This document shows, piece by piece, positions 8,412 to 15,910 of a DNA stretch of 57,500 nucleotides. Source of the stretch: Novosphingobium sp. 9. GTDB taxonomy: Bacteria > Pseudomonadota > Alphaproteobacteria > Sphingomonadales > Sphingomonadaceae. Under the pieces are notes generated by a model. The model was not told the origin of the DNA. It was given only the letters and a program-made list of their open reading frames with translations, and did not search any database. The stretch lies in NCBI RefSeq assembly GCF_025340265.1, contig NZ_CP022708.1, positions 1,017,501 to 1,075,000 on the forward strand. Reading direction: 5' to 3'. Within the stretch, counting starts at the first letter, position 1, and every line of letters begins with the position of its first letter. Both the position numbers and the translations under genes were made by a program.

Positions 8412-8495
8412 GATACAAGGGGGGCTTGTGCGCGGCCCCTGACTTGGCGCTTGGGGCAACGCGCACGATCGGGGCGATATGTTCACGGGGGGCCG

Positions 8496-9590
8496 ATGGA
8501 CAGGGGTGCATTGTACGATGCCATTCACGACGAGACGGCGTTTGCCGAACTGCCGACACGGCTTGCCCTGCTCGCGGGCGGACGATCCGCCACGCTCTAT
8601 CGGTTCGATAGCGCCGGGCATCTGACGGATCTGCAGTATTCGCATTTCCCCGACGAGGTGATCGCCGGGATTCTCGCCGACCCGGATCGCCGGCTCGATA
8701 CCTGGGGCAATATCGGCTTCGCCTCGGGCATTACCGGGCGAAGCATTGCACTGGACGACCTGCTGCCGGAAGCGGAATTCCGTCACTCGGCATTCTGGAA
8801 CGAGGTGGTTCGCCCGCTGGGCGACGACACCGGACATTGCATGGGGATCGTCCATCGCATGGAAGGCGCGATGCTGTGCACCGCGATCCAGCGCCCCATC
8901 GCCAGCCGCCATGCATCGGGCAGCAATTGGGGCGGCGTCTATTCCAAAGAGGAGACCGCGCGGCTCGACGGGCTGATCGTCGATCTCCAGCGCATCTATC
9001 TCGCCCGCAACCTGATCGGCGCGCACGAGCAGCGGATCGATGGCCTATCGCAGTTGCTCGACGCCGGAGAAGAGGGGCTTCTGCTGGTCGGTCCACGCCT
9101 GCGGGTGATCGAAGCGACGCCTGCGGCCCTCGCCGTGCTGGATGCGATGGGCGCGCGCGTGCGCGATGGCCATGTCCGCCTGGGCGACGCTCGCCTTGAA
9201 ACCATGCTGCGCCGAGCGGTGGAGGACACCCTCCACCGCCGTGCGACACCGCAGGTGACATTTGCCTGCGAGACTGCCGACGCCACATATACGGCACGCC
9301 TGCTGGTTCTGCCTACGAAGAGGGGCATGCAAAGCGGCTGCGTGATCCGCCTGCGCACAGAAGCATCGAGCGGGTGCCATACCGGAACGTGGCTGACCCG
9401 CCATTTCGGCCTGACCGCCGCCGAAGTTTCGGTGGCGCAGGCCCTGTCGGCCGGGCTCGCGCCCGATGACATCGCACAGCAACGCCGTGTCAGCCTCAAC
9501 ACCGTGCGCACGCAGGTTCGCCAGATTCTGCAAAAGACCGGCTGCGAGACGGTCACGCGTCTCGTCGTCCTGATCCGCAGCCTGCCGTAG
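8496..9590 (+). CDS. LuxR-type helix-turn-helix transcriptional regulator
   Basis: 364 residues from ATG 8496; a TTG 45 bp upstream is an alternative. The C-terminal 65 residues form a LuxR/GerE helix-turn-helix (FGLTAAEVSVAQALSAGL, then VSLNTVRTQVRQILQKTG). The N-terminal 290 residues form a sensor-like region with no acyl-homoserine-lactone motif that I can see. Such long single-HTH LuxR proteins are common orphans in sphingomonads. The targets are unknown. The convergent CsgG-like gene ends 24 bp downstream. Confidence 0.88.
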   Translation: MDRGALYDAIHDETAFAELPTRLALLAGGRSATLYRFDSAGHLTDLQYSHFPDEVIAGILADPDRRLDTWGNIGFASGITGRSIALDDLLPEAEFRHSAFWNEVVRPLGDDTGHCMGIVHRMEGAMLCTAIQRPIASRHASGSNWGGVYSKEETARLDGLIVDLQRIYLARNLIGAHEQRIDGLSQLLDAGEEGLLLVGPRLRVIEATPAALAVLDAMGARVRDGHVRLGDARLETMLRRAVEDTLHRRATPQVTFACETADATYTARLLVLPTKRGMQSGCVIRLRTEASSGCHTGTWLTRHFGLTAAEVSVAQALSAGLAPDDIAQQRRVSLNTVRTQVRQILQKTGCETVTRLVVLIRSLP

Positions 9591-9614: not shown

Positions 9615-10490
9615 CTAGCGCACGTTGCGGGCAATCGCCCTCAGCGTGTCGATCGCAACCTGCCGACCTGCGGCGAGCGGCGTTGCCGGCTCGGGCGTCG
9701 CCCGCACGAAACCGGCAGCCCCGGCGACATAGGGCATCGGTCCGGCAGAAGGCTGCCCCTCGCTGGAGGTCATCGCGATCACGCTGCCTGATCGCAGATC
9801 GCGCACCACGACCTTGAACGCGCTGTCACCCTCGGCGCGCGCCAGCGGCGTGACTTCCACCACCCAGTCCGCGCGGCCAAGCAGCGCCTTCATCTCCACC
9901 GCCTGCCCGTTCGCAGTATCGCCATCGAGCGCGGCGGCGCGAACGATCGTGGTGCGATCGACCAGTTTCACCCCCGCATCCGCCAGCCCCTGCATAAAGC
10001 CGCGTTCGAGATCGAAATCGACCGCCTCGGAGAACGGCGTGTCACGTCGCGCGTTATCCAGACGATTGGTGACGGAGCGCAAGGTCGCATCGACATCGCG
10101 CTCCGTGCGCGCATCGAGGCGACTGTGCGTGCCGCGCCGGGTGCCGCGCGTGTCGAGATCGGCCGCCTCGGTGCCCGAACCATGCAAGGAGAATGTCGTC
10201 ACATCCTCGCGCCCGGTCTCGATCTCATCGGTCAGCACGCGGTTCCAGAACACCGCCACCCGTGGCGAATGCACCCGCGCATAGGCAAACGAAAAACCCT
10301 CCGAGCCATCGCGCCGGGGCGGGGCATAGGGCGCATCCAGTGTCGCGGGCAGCCCCTCGCGCGTGCCCGGTGGCGAAGACCAGCCTGCTGTCACGCCGGG
10401 CTGGCCTTCGCGCTGGGGACCTTCCTGCGCCGCCGCATCGCTCCCCGATACAGCGGCGAATATCGTCATGGCCAACAGCGCCGTCTTCAC
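9615..10490 (-). CDS. Exported CsgG-like protein, fourth gene of LpoB-like operon
   Basis: 291 residues from GTG 10490. The start overlaps the stop of the upstream gene as GTGA, which argues for translational coupling. A signal peptide (MKTALLAMTIFAAVSGSDAAAQ) is followed by an Arg/Pro-rich stretch. Then comes a domain with the strand-helix pattern of CsgG/LpoB-like folds: RVAVFWNRVLTDE, FMQGLADAGVKLVDRTTIVRAA, WVVEVTPLARAEGDSAFKVVVRDLRSG. No lipobox cysteine is present. The family cannot be named with certainty; the fold assignment is inference from pattern and neighbours. Likely periplasmic and part of an envelope complex. Confidence 0.7.
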   Translation of the reverse strand: MKTALLAMTIFAAVSGSDAAAQEGPQREGQPGVTAGWSSPPGTREGLPATLDAPYAPPRRDGSEGFSFAYARVHSPRVAVFWNRVLTDEIETGREDVTTFSLHGSGTEAADLDTRGTRRGTHSRLDARTERDVDATLRSVTNRLDNARRDTPFSEAVDFDLERGFMQGLADAGVKLVDRTTIVRAAALDGDTANGQAVEMKALLGRADWVVEVTPLARAEGDSAFKVVVRDLRSGSVIAMTSSEGQPSAGPMPYVAGAAGFVRATPEPATPLAAGRQVAIDTLRAIARNVR

Positions 10491-10990
10491 TGGTCGGCCC
10501 TCAGTTCGATCAGGTAGAACTCGACGCCATCGGGACTGATCGAGCGTTCCTGATAGACGCTGGTCGAAAGCGGAGAGAGATAGACCGGCTTCCACACCGA
10601 GGCTTTTTCCGCCGGCGCCTGCGAGGCGTCCAGGAACGAAGAGCGGGCCTGCACCACCAGCGGCTGCTTGGTGCAGTTGACGAGCCGCGCGGTCACTTCC
10701 AGCGTATTCGCCTCGGTCCGCCGGGCGAATAGCCCTTCGACGACCACCTTCTTCCACGTCTCGCGGTCATTCATCTGCACCGCGTTGAGATCCACAGGCG
10801 TCATCGCACGCGGCATGTTGGCGACCAGCGCCGGGCCGCCATGCGGCGGGTCCTTGCGCGCAGCACCGATATTGCATTTCAGCGGGCGGTTTTCACGCGC
10901 AAGAGCCGGAGCGGGCAGCGGTGCCGGAACCAGGCCGGTGCCAAGCGCGGCCAACAGCACACCGCCGATCAGGAAACGTTGAAACTTCAC
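10487..10990 (-). CDS. YcfL/DUF1425-like exported protein
   Basis: 167 residues from GTG 10990, again with a GTGA overlap with the gene before it. A signal peptide (FLIGGVLLAALGTGLVPAPLPAPALA) is clear. The mature domain shows the DUF1425 pattern: LEVTARLVNCTKQPLVVQAR, then SVWKPVYLSPLSTSVYQ, then VEFYLIELR. E. coli YcfL is a lipoprotein encoded beside lpoB. Here the lipobox is missing, so the protein should be soluble in the periplasm. Its neighbour at 12473 is LpoB-like, which supports the assignment. Function in the family is unknown. Confidence 0.7.
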   Translation of the reverse strand: MKFQRFLIGGVLLAALGTGLVPAPLPAPALARENRPLKCNIGAARKDPPHGGPALVANMPRAMTPVDLNAVQMNDRETWKKVVVEGLFARRTEANTLEVTARLVNCTKQPLVVQARSSFLDASQAPAEKASVWKPVYLSPLSTSVYQERSISPDGVEFYLIELRADQ

Positions 10991-12393
10991 AGGGTCGATC
11001 CTTCCAGAGTGGTGCGGAAGGCCTTGTTCTTGACCTGCACCGGCTTCTTGCGATTCTGCGCGGCGGCAACGCCTGCATCCTCGCCGACGATATCGTCGCC
11101 GAACACGCCGGGACGCGAGCGCATCCACACGATCGAACAGGCCTTGGCCCCGCCGCGCAGGGTATCGCTGTCCTTCAGGCCATCCACCGCAGCAGTGTCC
11201 TTGAGATACTTACCCTCGGACTTCCACGAAGGGGACTTCGCGGTGGCGGAGCCCACCAGGATCAGATCGGGCAGCCCTTCCCAGGCGCGAATATCGGCAT
11301 TGGTCTTCATCGCGCCCGAGAACATCTTGAACATGCTTCCGGCGAGCTGCGAATAGACGCCGCCGTTGCCCATCAGTCCCTGCATCGCCAGCGCGGTGCC
11401 CACGGCATCGGTGCCTTCCTTCCAGTTGGCCTTGCCGTTCATCAGTCCGTCGATGGCGCGCCCGCCGCGCGTGGTCGCCTGATACTGCACGCTGCTGGCC
11501 AGCCGGAGTGGAACCGCGCTGGTCTTCTTGCCATCGACCAGCGTCACCGCCGCCGCATTTTCATCGTAGGCCGCGCCCGGCTGGAACACGAGTTTCTGCG
11601 CCTGCGCGGCATCGCGCGCCTTGACCGGCCCATTGCCGAGCTCCGCCACGAACAGCACGTTGTCTCCCGGTGCGGGCGCTGTCAGGCCCTTTTGCGCCTT
11701 CATCGCCAGATCGAACGATTCCCTGGCAGAGGTCGTGTCGCCCGCACACTTCTGGCTCCAGCCGCGCAAGTAGTTCATCACCGCAAAGTCGCTCTGGAAG
11801 CTCTCTTCCTCGGACAGCGTATCCTGATACTCGGCATTCTTGAACGACACCGTTGCATCGGGGTAATTGCCCTGCTGCAGATAGATCAGCCCGCGATAGT
11901 AATAGGCCATGGCGCGTTCGTAGGGCTCGCCCTTGAAGTCCTTGTTGGCCTCATTGTGGAATACCGATCGCGCGGTCGCCGCCTGCGGGTTGTCGGCATA
12001 GATCGTCTCGATCCGGTTCAACGCCTGATCGAAAGCCCAGCCCGCGTCCTTGAACTGTCCCGCCTGATAGGCTGCCAGCCCCAGCCGCTCGAAGTTGAGC
12101 ACCGCATTGCGCTCCCCGCCTGTGTAAAGCGCGCGATAAAGCGGACGCAGCGCCTCCGGTTTGGCATTGACGTAAGCGGTGATCTCGTCCGGGTAAGGCC
12201 CCATGCCATACTTCGCGACCAGATCGCGCTGGCGCTTCGCCTCGGCCTTGGCGGCCGCTTTTGCAGCCTTTGCATCGGCCACCGGTGCAACATCGGACGA
12301 AGCGGCCGGCACTATCGCTCCGGTCTGCGCGCGAAGCGGTGCGGCAACCAGCGTGGTGGACAGCAGGACGGTGATGACAACGCGAATACGCAT
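10987..12393 (-). CDS. COG3014-like exported repeat protein
   Basis: 468 residues from ATG 12393, which has a good ribosome-binding site (AAGGGGG). A signal peptide (VVITVLLSTTLVAAPLRAQ) precedes an Ala/Lys-rich segment. Helical TPR-like repeats follow: VLNFERLGLAAYQAGQFKDA, AMAYYYRGLIYLQQGNYPDA, FAVMNYLRGWSQKCAGD. The second half is mainly beta (VLFVAELGNGPVKARDA). This architecture matches COG3014, uncharacterised proteins encoded beside lpoB and ycfL in gamma-proteobacteria such as Vibrio. Those are lipoproteins; this one lacks a lipobox cysteine. Role unknown. Confidence 0.72.
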   Translation of the reverse strand: MRIRVVITVLLSTTLVAAPLRAQTGAIVPAASSDVAPVADAKAAKAAAKAEAKRQRDLVAKYGMGPYPDEITAYVNAKPEALRPLYRALYTGGERNAVLNFERLGLAAYQAGQFKDAGWAFDQALNRIETIYADNPQAATARSVFHNEANKDFKGEPYERAMAYYYRGLIYLQQGNYPDATVSFKNAEYQDTLSEEESFQSDFAVMNYLRGWSQKCAGDTTSARESFDLAMKAQKGLTAPAPGDNVLFVAELGNGPVKARDAAQAQKLVFQPGAAYDENAAAVTLVDGKKTSAVPLRLASSVQYQATTRGGRAIDGLMNGKANWKEGTDAVGTALAMQGLMGNGGVYSQLAGSMFKMFSGAMKTNADIRAWEGLPDLILVGSATAKSPSWKSEGKYLKDTAAVDGLKDSDTLRGGAKACSIVWMRSRPGVFGDDIVGEDAGVAAAQNRKKPVQVKNKAFRTTLEGSTL

Positions 12394-12472
12394 GGAAATT
12401 CCCCCTTCTGGATGAGCGCGGCACGCGATTGCCCCCTGCAAACCCGTGAGCGAACGCAAGCTTTTGGAAAAC

Positions 12473-13111
12473 TCAGCGGTAGACGACGTCGTCCCCGGCT
12501 GCCCGGACGATCACATAGGGCTCTCCGCTCCACGGCAGATCACCGGTTTCCATGTCGACCAGCTCGAACACCACTTGCGTGCGGCGCTGGACAAGTCCCG
12601 AGCGGGTATCGCGCGAATCCAGCGAAGTGACGCGGCCGATCAACTGATAGTCGACGCCCGAGACACCCTTGGTCATCCCGCGCGTACCCACATCGGCAAC
12701 CCCCGAACGCTTGAGTTCACGCTCACGCATGACGATGTCCATCGCCTCGCGACTGACGAAACGGATGCGTCCCTTCGCCGCGCGGTTCAGTTCGGCACGC
12801 AGCATCGAGGTAATCATGTCCCGGTCGATGCGCTGGATCGAATTGTTATAGAACTTCTCGCTATCCACGACGATGCGCGGCGGCACAGGGGTGCCGACAA
12901 TATCGGGCCGCGACATGAGATCGCGCACCACCTCGTCGGCCATTCGCTGAATATCCGCCGATTCGATCGATTGCCCGAACACCGCCCCCTTGCTCGACGG
13001 ATCGATCTCCATCGCCTGCGTGCCACGCTTGTTCGATCCGGCATGGGCAGCGCTGCTGCCGAACGCCAGAATTCCCATCGAGGCTGCCGCGATAAGGCCA
13101 CGAAACTGCAT
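12473..13111 (-). CDS. LpoB-like penicillin-binding-protein activator homologue
   Basis: 212 residues from ATG 13111. A signal peptide (MQFRGLIAAASMGILAFGSSAAHA) precedes a domain with the LpoB pattern: IQRMADEVVRDL, then RIVVDSEKFYNNSIQRIDRDMI, then RIRFVSREAMDIVMRERELKRSG, then VDYQLIGRVTSLDSR. E. coli LpoB is an outer-membrane lipoprotein that activates PBP1b through its UB2H domain. This homologue lacks the lipobox cysteine, so membrane anchoring differs. The gene leads a four-gene operon; 79 bp separate it from the next gene. The name lpoB is not assigned because activation of a PBP is unproven in alpha-proteobacteria. Confidence 0.78.
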   Translation of the reverse strand: MQFRGLIAAASMGILAFGSSAAHAGSNKRGTQAMEIDPSSKGAVFGQSIESADIQRMADEVVRDLMSRPDIVGTPVPPRIVVDSEKFYNNSIQRIDRDMITSMLRAELNRAAKGRIRFVSREAMDIVMRERELKRSGVADVGTRGMTKGVSGVDYQLIGRVTSLDSRDTRSGLVQRRTQVVFELVDMETGDLPWSGEPYVIVRAAGDDVVYR

Positions 13112-13290: not shown

Positions 13291-14715
13291 ATGGAACACG
13301 CCCCTCACATGCTTCTGATCGACGGCCATCTGGTCGACGGCGCCAGCGATTTTCCCGTCATCAATCCGGCCACCGGCGCGCCCTTCGCGCAAGCCCCGCG
13401 CGCCGACGAAGCGCAGGCGGCTGTTGCCGTGGCTGCGGCCCGACGGGCCTTTCCGGACTGGGCGGCGCTGGGTTTCGGCGAGCGGCGTCGGCGTCTGGAA
13501 GCACTCGCCGACGGGCTGGAGGCGGATCTGGAGACCATGGCTCGCCTGCTGACGCGCGAACAGGGCAAGCCGCTGACGGAAGCGCGCGAGGAAGTGTTCT
13601 TCTCCGTCGCTGCGCTGCGCCACTTCGCCGCGATGACGCTAGAGCCGCGCGTGCTGCGCGACACTGCCAAAGAACGCATTGTCGAGCAGCGCTATCCGCT
13701 GGGGGTCGTCGCGGCGATCACGCCATGGAACTACCCGCTGCTGCTGCTAATGGTGAAGCTGGCGCCAGCGCTCATCACCGGCAACGCGGTGATTGCCAAA
13801 CCGGCGCCCTCGACCCCGCTCACCACACTGCGGCTGGGCAGGATCGCTGCCGACATCCTGCCCCCCGGCGTGTTCCAGACGCTGGTCGACCGGAACGACC
13901 TCGGTGCCTGGCTGAGCCGCCACCCGGACGTGGCGCATGTCAGCTTCACCGGCTCCACGCCCACCGGCAAGAAAGTGCTGGCAAGCGCTGCCGACACGCT
14001 CAAGCGGTTCACGCTGGAACTGGGCGGTAATGACCCCGCGCTGATCCTCGACGATGCCGATGTTGCCAAGGTCGCCGCGCGCATCTTCGCCGGTGCCACC
14101 GCCAACGCCGGGCAGATCTGCCTCGCGATCAAGCGCGTCTATGCGCCCCGCGCGATGATGGATGCGCTGTGCGACGAGCTGGCGCGGCTGGCGGACGAGG
14201 CCGTGGTGGGCGACGGCATGGAACAGGGCACCACCATCGGCCCGATCCAGAACCGCGCGCAGTACGAAAAGGTGCTCGGTTTCATCGAAGAGGCCCGCAC
14301 GCAGGGCACGCTCGTCGCAGGGCGCGCGCCGAACGAGGACGTTACCGGAACCGGCGGCTACTTCATCGCGCCAACGATTGTGCGCGACCTGCCGGACGAT
14401 GCCCGCCTCGTGCGCGAGGAACAGTTCGGCCCGGTGCTGCCGGTGCTGGCCTATAACGATCTCGATCAGGCCATCGCGCGGATCAACGACAGCGACTATG
14501 GCCTCGGCGCCAGCATCTGGACCGGCGACGCAGCGCGCGGTGCGGAGCTGGCAGCGCGGATCGAAAGCGGCACGGTATGGGTGAACAAACACCTCGAACT
14601 ACCCTTCGACGTGCCCTTCGGCGGTGCCAAGCAGTCCGGCATCGGTCGCCAGCAGGGGATCGAGGGACTGGAGGACTTCACGCAGGCGCGCATCGTCAAC
14701 GTGGCGCTGGGGTGA
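13291..14715 (+). CDS. NAD(P)-dependent aldehyde dehydrogenase, semialdehyde type
   Basis: 474 residues. The aldehyde dehydrogenase landmarks are present: TPWNYPLLLL, the glycine motif FTGSTPTGKKV, the catalytic glutamate in LELGGNDPALI, the catalytic cysteine in NAGQICLAIKRVY and EEQFGPVLPVLAY. The IKRVY segment after the cysteine is typical of a semialdehyde/acyl aldehyde branch. It oxidises an aldehyde to the acid with NAD or NADP; the substrate is unknown. It is divergent from the LpoB-like operon and lies 121 bp before a Rieske oxygenase. A nested palindrome lies between those two genes. Confidence 0.92.
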   Translation: MEHAPHMLLIDGHLVDGASDFPVINPATGAPFAQAPRADEAQAAVAVAAARRAFPDWAALGFGERRRRLEALADGLEADLETMARLLTREQGKPLTEAREEVFFSVAALRHFAAMTLEPRVLRDTAKERIVEQRYPLGVVAAITPWNYPLLLLMVKLAPALITGNAVIAKPAPSTPLTTLRLGRIAADILPPGVFQTLVDRNDLGAWLSRHPDVAHVSFTGSTPTGKKVLASAADTLKRFTLELGGNDPALILDDADVAKVAARIFAGATANAGQICLAIKRVYAPRAMMDALCDELARLADEAVVGDGMEQGTTIGPIQNRAQYEKVLGFIEEARTQGTLVAGRAPNEDVTGTGGYFIAPTIVRDLPDDARLVREEQFGPVLPVLAYNDLDQAIARINDSDYGLGASIWTGDAARGAELAARIESGTVWVNKHLELPFDVPFGGAKQSGIGRQQGIEGLEDFTQARIVNVALG

Positions 14716-14736
14716 TAGTGCGCTGCAAGGATGGGC

Positions 14737-14784
14737 GCTCTATTTTATGCAATGATGCGGCCTATTCATTGCGTTTGATAGAGC
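14737..14784 (+). promoter_or_regulatory. Nested dyad before Rieske oxygenase
   Basis: GCTCTAT (14737-14743) pairs with ATAGAGC (14778-14784), and inside it CAATGA (14750-14755) pairs with TCATTG (14766-14771). The structure lies between the aldehyde dehydrogenase stop and the oxygenase start, so it could be a terminator, attenuator or operator. Confidence 0.5.
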
Positions 14785-14836
14785 GGCCTGCACTTGCGAC
14801 AAGGCTGGAACGATATTCCCCAACGGATATAGCTCC

Positions 14837-15910
14837 ATGGCCACTGCCCCCGTTCTCGACACCACCCCGGACACCCGGCGCCCGCCCTTACCGCACGGCT
14901 GCACTTTTGATGCCGAGGATTGGTACGTACTCGGGCGGTTCTGGTATCCGGTCGCGCTGGTTCGCGATGTGGCCGAGAAGCCGATCGGCACCAAGCTGCT
15001 CGATCAGCCGCTGGTGGTCTATCGTTCGGGCGGCGAGGTCGTCGTCGCCACCGATGTCTGCCCGCATCGCGGGGTGCCGCTCAGCATGGGCACGCAGGCG
15101 GACGACACGGTCGTCTGCCCCTATCACGGCCTGCGCTTCGGTGCAGGCGGCAAGTGCGTGCATGTCCCCGCCCATCCCGCGCGCGACATTCCCGCCCGGC
15201 TGAACTTGCGCACGTTTCCCGCCATCGAGCGCTATGGCCTGATCTGGACCTGCCTCGATCCCGTAGGAGAGGCCCCGGCGCCGGGCGACATTCCCGACAT
15301 GCCGCACTGGGACGAGGACGGCTTCCAGCAGATCACCTGCCCCTCGACCGATATCGCAGGCTTTGCCGGGCGCCAGCTCGAAGGGTTCCTCGACGTCGCG
15401 CACTTCGCCTTCGTCCATACCGAGACCTTCGCCGATCCCGACAATGCCGAAGTGCCCGCGTATTCCCCCAAACGCACCGATTACGGGTTCGAGGCCGAGT
15501 ACTGGAGCAGCGTGGGCAACTACCCGATCGGGGTTTCGCAGCGCGGTGTTCCCGGCTTCCAGTGGCTACGTCATTTCCGCTGCCACCTGCCGTTCACCGC
15601 GACACTGGAGATCCACTTCCCCGGTAGCGACCGGCTGGTCATCATGAACGCCGCCTCACCGGTATCCGCCCGTATGACCCGCCTGTTCGCGCCGATCGCG
15701 CGCAATTTCGATACCGACCTGCCGGTGCAGGACGTCTACGACTTCAACCAGCGCATCTTCGACGAGGACAAGATCATCGTCGAGGCGCAGATGCCCGAAT
15801 GGCTCCCGCTCGACCCCGGCGATGAAGGGCATATCCCCGCCGACATGAGTTCGATGACCTACCGACGCGGACTCAAGGCCCTCGGCCTCAAGCGGTTCTT
15901 CGGGTATTGA
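14837..15910 (+). CDS. Rieske [2Fe-2S] non-heme iron oxygenase, alpha subunit
   Basis: 357 residues. The Rieske cluster motif is CPHRG, then CPYHG 18 residues later (about residues 75-97). The mononuclear iron site follows as LDVAHFAFVH with the two histidines (about 195-200). The C-terminal catalytic domain and total length fit a single-component-type alpha subunit such as vanillate O-demethylase or phenoxybenzoate dioxygenase relatives. It would hydroxylate or demethylate an aromatic substrate using electrons from a separate reductase. No reductase or ferredoxin gene lies nearby. An aldehyde dehydrogenase precedes it, which would suit a catabolic pair. Confidence 0.93.
   Translation: MATAPVLDTTPDTRRPPLPHGCTFDAEDWYVLGRFWYPVALVRDVAEKPIGTKLLDQPLVVYRSGGEVVVATDVCPHRGVPLSMGTQADDTVVCPYHGLRFGAGGKCVHVPAHPARDIPARLNLRTFPAIERYGLIWTCLDPVGEAPAPGDIPDMPHWDEDGFQQITCPSTDIAGFAGRQLEGFLDVAHFAFVHTETFADPDNAEVPAYSPKRTDYGFEAEYWSSVGNYPIGVSQRGVPGFQWLRHFRCHLPFTATLEIHFPGSDRLVIMNAASPVSARMTRLFAPIARNFDTDLPVQDVYDFNQRIFDEDKIIVEAQMPEWLPLDPGDEGHIPADMSSMTYRRGLKALGLKRFFGY

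Follow-up and report, generated by a model that had tools for sequence, protein, structure and literature searches.

Four adjacent genes for exported proteins in Novosphingobium sp. 9 belong, on the evidence of gene neighborhoods in relatives, to a real, sparse module that is kept together across several bacterial groups. Its first subunit is, as judged by sequence, a paralogous LpoB-family protein, and the most likely reading of the set, which we put forward tentatively, is that of a periplasmic complex that acts in an Lpo-like manner but does not need UB2H, the known dock for LpoB.

The gene set and its distribution

Within the window, the 57,500-nucleotide stretch analyzed here, our reading of the open frames places four genes for exported proteins side by side on the minus strand at 13111-9615. 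The first (12473..13111) encodes the LpoB-superfamily protein P0001 of 212 amino acids, the second (10987..12393) the COG3014-like TPR protein P0002 of 468, the third (10487..10990) the YcfL/DUF1425-like P0003 of 167, and the fourth (9615..10490) the 291-amino-acid P0004, of an unnamed family referred to here as G4. Genes 1 and 2 are separated by a 79-base gap (12394..12472, minus strand) with AAGGGGG shortly before the gene 2 ATG, and genes 3 and 4 each start at a GTG within a GTGA overlap with the preceding gene's stop. Judged by eye, all four N termini resemble signal peptides, and a lipobox cysteine is absent from all four proteins. An earlier note on this DNA had described adjacent minus-strand genes for exported proteins, the last three coupled by GTGA overlaps and none with a lipid anchor, and each point was confirmed. 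The genes have a GC content of 0.62 to 0.69 (GC3, 0.76 to 0.79) in a window of 0.63. None of the four proteins matched PHROGs at E values up to 0.01, and so there is no sign of phage origin; no relative of P0002 was found in viral contigs.

The same four genes stay together in relatives, as the earlier note had required of them. Through the TPR gene alone, using two conserved TPR peptides, we collected 213 relatives and took the best 80 as named loci (L055 to L134), a sample in which Idiomarinaceae and Sphingomonas are over-weighted. The module was complete on one strand in 68 of these 80 loci, so the survey gives no ground for rejecting the gene set. Hosts include Alpha-, Beta-, and Gammaproteobacteria and one Desulfococcaceae genome, which makes the initial view of an alphaproteobacterial peculiarity too narrow. 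A neighbor comparison of 88 loci, in which four contigs occur twice as judged by their length (L041/L061, L042/L063, L043/L072, and L047/L071), took its E values from profiles that had taken in neighbors; the unextended seed alignments A2 to A5 of the first round had given identical counts of matching frames.

An order survey of 196 genomes found a strong LpoB match (at least 69.9 bits) in nine, and the same nine were those with a strong P0002-family match (E of 7.7e-83 or better), the two genes being adjacent in every case. The remaining matches, 12 to LpoB and 2 to the P0002 family, were weak and partial, and the co-occurrence is beyond chance. Strong G4 matches were found in 3 of 229 gammaproteobacterial genomes and in 4 of 398 genomes of a second sample, where a fifth match (G566; E of 4.5e-4), in a frame of 57 amino acids containing two stops, was excluded. 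In all seven genomes with strong G4, the window's included, another module gene adjoins it.

The link previously drawn between lpoB, ycfL, and COG3014 genes in gammaproteobacteria is supported. High-scoring LpoB genes there, defined by a PF13036 score of at least 107 bits (TIGR02722 was run on two of them), adjoin DUF1425 and/or TPR genes, and the latter we take to be the genes labeled COG3014. All three occur together clearly in Marinobacter F3R11, and ycfL comes before lpoB in E. coli.

The four proteins

P0001 is a member of the Pfam LpoB family, as the earlier note had proposed (PF13036; E of 5.1e-19, 69.1 bits against a gathering cut-off of 22.3), and it also passes Pfam CsgG (PF03783; 29.2 bits, cut-off 20.8). 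It fails the LpoB equivalog TIGR02722, at 42.6 bits against a curated cut-off of 110.55. Five further module LpoB proteins scanned score 56.4 to 78.9 bits against this model, and non-module LpoB proteins in two module genomes reach 152 and 207.5 bits; a module LpoB and a true LpoB coexist in the genomes of Marinobacter F3R11 and Colwellia maritima. In a tree with 33 high-scoring rows (the 30 best-scoring ones, to which Colwellia, Marinobacter, and E. coli were added, the last a very long branch) and with five duplicate module rows omitted, the module LpoB proteins, P0001 among them, form their own side with support of 93/93. Two genomes, G288 (88 bits) and G345 (55 bits), lie outside both LpoB classes. 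PDB sequence searches returned no relevant match for P0001 and none for alignments A4, A5, A6, A7, and A8. With the equivalog cut-off missed, P0001 on a separate side of the tree, and no UB2H seen in a class A PBP of the genome, the version that the earlier note had implied, a plain E. coli-type LpoB minus its anchor, is not supported.

The TPR protein is homologous at the profile level to its presumed gammaproteobacterial counterpart. Only TPR repeats reach a curated-level score in P0002 (TPR_2, 31.4 bits), and hhalign was run against ten TPR genes adjacent to high-scoring LpoB genes, all ten preselected with the TPR profile of the module; it gave a probability of 99.2 and an E value of 7.2e-20 over a span that takes in the TPR stretch and the ADxRxWxxLP region. 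This bears out the COG3014-like assignment, with two differences: P0002 and most of its Sphingomonadaceae-type relatives carry no lipobox, and P0002 sits in a four-gene set with G4. AlphaFold predicts TPR helices followed by a C-terminal beta/alpha region (pLDDT, 83.6), and the closest solved folds to this model are TPR domains. P0003 scores below the cut-off of DUF1425 (PF07233; 20.7 bits, gathering cut-off 28.3). The YcfL-like assignment is nevertheless supported, as seven of eight same-slot proteins, P0003 included, match PF07233 at E values up to 0.1 (best, 3.6e-6), and the one from L048 scores 36.7 bits.

For gene 4, a CsgG-like pattern had been noted, and what survives of it is a predicted structure. 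P0004 matches nothing in Pfam, CsgG PF03783 included, or in NCBIfam at E values up to 1, the passing Pfam CsgG score being P0001's instead; profile comparison found no homology between G4 and LpoB. The AlphaFold model (pLDDT, 82.3) has CsgG, TolB, LpoB, PelC, and GNA1162 among its best Foldseek and VIA-align 2 rows, at middling Z scores and in lists where a family's absence does not exclude it. The tentative prediction is a fold of the CsgG/LpoB/TolB-N type with a variable polar beta-hairpin insert, which would put CsgG, the TolB N-domain, PelC, and GNA1162 among the closest known systems.

Because folds of the LpoB/CsgG/TolB/PelC kind also serve secretion and transport, the fold alone does not fix function, and this counts against an Lpo-like reading. 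The main rival, which we consider rather unlikely, is an assembly or export platform in which the LpoB-like and G4 proteins would assemble into CsgG/PelC-like rings, the TPR and YcfL-like proteins would be accessories, and the whole would support export of a polymer or surface protein. The structural matches of G4 to CsgG, PelC, and GNA1162 and the passing CsgG score of P0001 are consistent with such a platform, TPR proteins accompany such systems, and 20 of the 80 loci have a gene for a glycine-zipper-like lipoprotein next to the module. However, a G4 lipobox is rare (2 of 53 in L071 to L134, 0 of 16 in L055 to L070), and among the recurrent flanking families listed, three of them domain-scanned, none was recognized as a polymer synthase or an amyloid gene. 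The G4 hairpin is polar and variable in length in the 15 sequences compared and so does not look membrane-like, and we rejected it as a CsgG-like membrane hairpin.

Lipid anchors and class A PBPs

Outside Sphingomonadaceae-type loci, usually one to three module subunits are predicted lipoproteins, whereas most Sphingomonadaceae-type loci have no anchor on any subunit. This census used a custom rule rather than SignalP, by which L058, L062, and L064 are likely false positives and L076 and L079 are doubtful. Along the LpoB tree the lipobox changed at least seven times, a count for which L064 and the window were set to "none" by hand. The pattern looks like a loss of anchors in most Sphingomonadaceae-type loci. 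One possibility is a general scaffold of the envelope, which would set outer membrane-peptidoglycan spacing or sense stress without direct synthase regulation. Up to three anchors per operon and their repeated change would suit a scaffold, and the scattered distribution (9/196, 3/229, and 4/398 genomes with strong matches) suggests an accessory role, but the anchorless state of most Sphingomonadaceae-type loci is ill-suited to tethering, and we regard a scaffold as distinctly unlikely.

The domain scan covered three open frames of the window's genome, each with both transglycosylase and transpeptidase domains; a fourth GT51 frame measures 305 amino acids. No class A PBP with UB2H was found there, the genome's UB2H matches being UvrB and an Mfd-like frame, both partial, so the one contact known for LpoB is lacking. 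A strong UB2H match was present in 14 of 34 named module genomes and absent from the other 20. Across the 229 gammaproteobacterial genomes, UB2H occurred in 33 of 44 with LpoB of at least 107 bits versus 98 of 185 others, a weak link (Fisher p of 0.01), and in all three genomes with G4. GT51 matches numbered 5 in the window's genome (two from one split frame) and 6, 6, 3, 2, 2, 2, 4, and 2 in eight other module genomes, against typical sample values of roughly 4 for the window's family and 2 for other families. With no consistent rise in module genomes, we rejected a tie between the module and extra PBPs. No PBP gene was recognized among the 30 recurrent flanking families listed (three domain-scanned). 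A canonical LpoB pathway, in which P0001 would activate a class A PBP by way of a UB2H-like dock too divergent for the Pfam model, can draw on the Pfam LpoB match and the three bifunctional frames but is very improbable given the failed equivalog cut-off, the identity of the UB2H matches, and the true LpoB that accompanies module LpoB in Marinobacter F3R11 and Colwellia maritima.

A possible Lpo-like complex

An Lpo-like complex working without UB2H is favored by the LpoB match, the DUF1425 and/or TPR genes beside high-scoring LpoB, the TPR homology, the co-occurrence of the genes, the signal peptides and lipobox census, the fold matches of G4, and the activity that E. coli LpoB retains at the inner membrane; the missing UB2H, the inconsistent GT51 counts, and the lack of a recognized flanking PBP gene count against it. 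The four products would form one periplasmic module, with the TPR protein as the scaffold of a complex and the LpoB-like and G4 proteins as effector surfaces. These would touch an enzyme of the envelope through an Lpo-like contact that needs no UB2H dock, and the likeliest target would be a class A PBP or some other peptidoglycan synthase. As most Sphingomonadaceae-type loci encode no anchor, their complex would be soluble in the periplasm. According to passages of PMC9593243, E. coli LpoB keeps activating PBP1B when it is moved to the inner membrane, but the turn-down of synthesis after osmotic upshift is impaired; by analogy, one would expect the soluble form to activate but not to sense outer membrane distance or wall pores.

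A broader proposal, possible though doubtful, is that the module represents a second Lpo-type system that does not depend on UB2H. It would be a periplasmic machine of four proteins, with two LpoB/CsgG-fold subunits and sometimes a fifth, glycine-zipper-like lipoprotein, patchy across Proteobacteria and beyond, fully soluble in most Sphingomonadaceae-type hosts, and with the E. coli ycfL-lpoB pair as a stripped relative. That pair parallels the YcfL-like and LpoB genes of the module, and E. coli LpoB belongs to the same family, but the window differs in an LpoB that lacks a lipobox and in the addition of G4. A precedent for TPR proteins in class A PBP activation is LpoP of Pseudomonas aeruginosa, described in passages of PMC7267771 as a TPR-domain activator. 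LpoP, however, is an outer membrane lipoprotein that binds UB2H, which many module hosts lack, and the TPR protein of the module is larger and comes together with LpoB-type proteins.

With most subscription papers outside the scope of our searches, no paper on COG3014 was found, and the module was described in no title or abstract opening among the matches listed for the LpoB, ycfL, and DUF1425 literature. In sections of PMC3060616, LpoA is reported as restricted to gammaproteobacteria and LpoB to enterobacteria, at a 100-bit cut-off, and a passage of PMC10470522 states that as of 2023 no LpoA or LpoB homologues were known in R. sphaeroides and other Alphaproteobacteria. A conserved alphaproteobacterial LpoB-family module without UB2H alters this reported restriction and raises the question of what job an LpoB-type protein does where its known dock is missing. 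The naturally occurring range from three anchors down to none makes the role of outer membrane anchoring directly testable, and the unanchored set may represent a different way of envelope control.

The four-gene module and its distribution

The four minus-strand genes encode an LpoB-family protein (P0001, 13111-12473), a TPR protein (P0002, 12393-10987), a YcfL-like protein (P0003, 10990-10487) and a member of a family we call G4 (P0004, 10490-9615). In the window sequence, 79 bases separate gene 1 from gene 2, GTGA overlaps join genes 2 and 3 and genes 3 and 4, and all four products have signal-peptide-like N termini. Of the flanking plus-strand genes, one for a LuxR-type regulator (8451-9590) converges on the set and one for an aldehyde dehydrogenase (13291-14715) diverges from it; the latter and a vanillate-demethylase-like Rieske oxygenase gene adjoin the module on the opposite strand (13291-15910, plus).

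Among 196 genomes of the order, the nine with strong LpoB matches were the same nine with a strong match to the P0002 family, the two genes being adjacent in every case, and all eight further loci opened from this collection carried all four genes in the same order. Within the window's genus, the window's genome was the only one of 11 sampled to have the module. Scanning named genomes with a TPR alignment yielded 213 relatives, and in 68 of the best 80 of these the complete set lay on one strand. The remaining 12 were without one or two genes: in nine, the contig ended less than 2.5 kb from the TPR gene, but three of these nine (L112, L120 and L134) also lacked a gene on the side where enough sequence was available; the other three (L073, L089 and L116) lay away from contig ends. 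Starting from G4, we found matches in 3/229 gammaproteobacterial genomes and strong matches in 4/398 genomes of the phylum, with a second module gene within the fetched stretch in all seven, which include the window's genome and two others already known as carriers. Judged from sequence, the four genes are a conserved module.

Gene order was LpoB-TPR-YcfL-G4 in 54 of 88 loci, LpoB-YcfL-G4-TPR in 14 (Burkholderiales and Lysobacter/Pseudoxanthomonas), TPR-LpoB-YcfL-G4 in four (the Erythrobacter group) and otherwise in 16, incomplete loci included. Hosts include Sphingomonas, Kordiimonas, Rhodospirillales, Polaromonas, Lysobacter, Idiomarina, Marinobacter and a Desulfococcaceae bacterium; Nitrospinaceae loci have LpoB and TPR genes and mostly a YcfL-like gene, and G4 was not found in them. 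In 20 of the 80 named loci, and also in genome G171, the module has a fifth gene beside it, for a glycine-zipper-like lipoprotein (examples are L132:3630-5132, L124:4657-5190 and L048:6480-7130); two representatives scanned, from L132 and L048, matched no Pfam family. In Idiomarinaceae-type loci an S41-peptidase-like gene comes after the module, in most cases no more than 100 bases away (L124:8510-9877, the only one whose domain was scanned, and L085, L093, L097, L100, L103, L105, L106 and L108).

Two lines of LpoB

Besides a module LpoB that stays below the equivalog cut-off (78.9 and 56.4 bits), Marinobacter F3R11 and Colwellia maritima each have an LpoB that exceeds it (152 and 207.5 bits). 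The true LpoB gene stands in a TPR-DUF1425-LpoB row in Marinobacter and between DUF1425 and glycine-zipper genes in Colwellia. Most of 30 further high-scoring LpoB genes, viewed in stretches of about 3.4 kb, have a YcfL-like and/or TPR match beside them, and several of these matches are weak, with E up to 0.1; neither was seen within the stretches of L152, L153, L158, L160, L162 and L165. In an unrooted tree of 115 LpoB-family proteins, with E. coli on a long branch, a branch supported at 93/93 splits 82 module members from 33 high-scoring ones. Because of this split and the coexistence with true LpoB, module LpoB is taken as a paralogous line, distinct from E. coli-type LpoB.

Anchors, UB2H and possible function

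No lipobox was seen in the four window products. Where LpoB, TPR and YcfL-like genes were all present (74 named loci), our own lipobox rule called all three lipoproteins in 29, LpoB and YcfL in 13, LpoB only in six, YcfL only in five, other patterns in four and none in 17; G4 was flagged in 2 of 69 named loci. Across 16 Sphingomonadales loci (L055-L070), LpoB, TPR and YcfL were flagged once each, apparently falsely. Exceptions to the pattern are G171, from the window's own family, where the YcfL-like protein has a lipobox and G4 is flagged; Kordiimonas, from the window's order, with a lipobox on LpoB; and the gammaproteobacterium Lysobacter niastensis, with none. The LpoB lipobox changed at least seven times on the LpoB tree. 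By analogy, anchor loss is compatible with activity, because E. coli LpoB retains its activation of PBP1B when relocated to the inner membrane, according to PMC9593243, which also reports impaired turn-down of synthesis after osmotic upshift and impaired high-salt growth.

In the window's own genome, three open frames combine transglycosylase and transpeptidase domains; none of them matches UB2H (the LpoB dock on class A PBPs). The genome also has one more short GT51 frame, and its UB2H matches are UvrB and an Mfd-like frame. Strong UB2H matches (E 5.8e-13 or better) occurred in 14 of 34 named module genomes, all gammaproteobacteria by name. The other 20, all non-gammaproteobacteria by name, gave no match or only weak ones, mostly in frames of Mfd or UvrB length (judged by length alone). 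Two irregular reading frames were seen in the window's own genome: a GT51 gene at C1:282018-282514 is matched in two overlapping frames, with a TGA inside the shorter, a frameshift that is either genuine or an assembly error; an Mfd-like frame at C1:2031587-2031724 (UvrB interaction domain), open for only about 300 amino acids, is a pseudogene or an assembly error.

By sequence, the conserved exported set combines a member of the LpoB family and another protein predicted to adopt an LpoB/CsgG-type fold with a YcfL-like and a TPR protein. The main rival reading would make this set a CsgG/PelC-like assembly platform. We favor a model in which the module proteins would form a complex that may act on a peptidoglycan synthase without UB2H.
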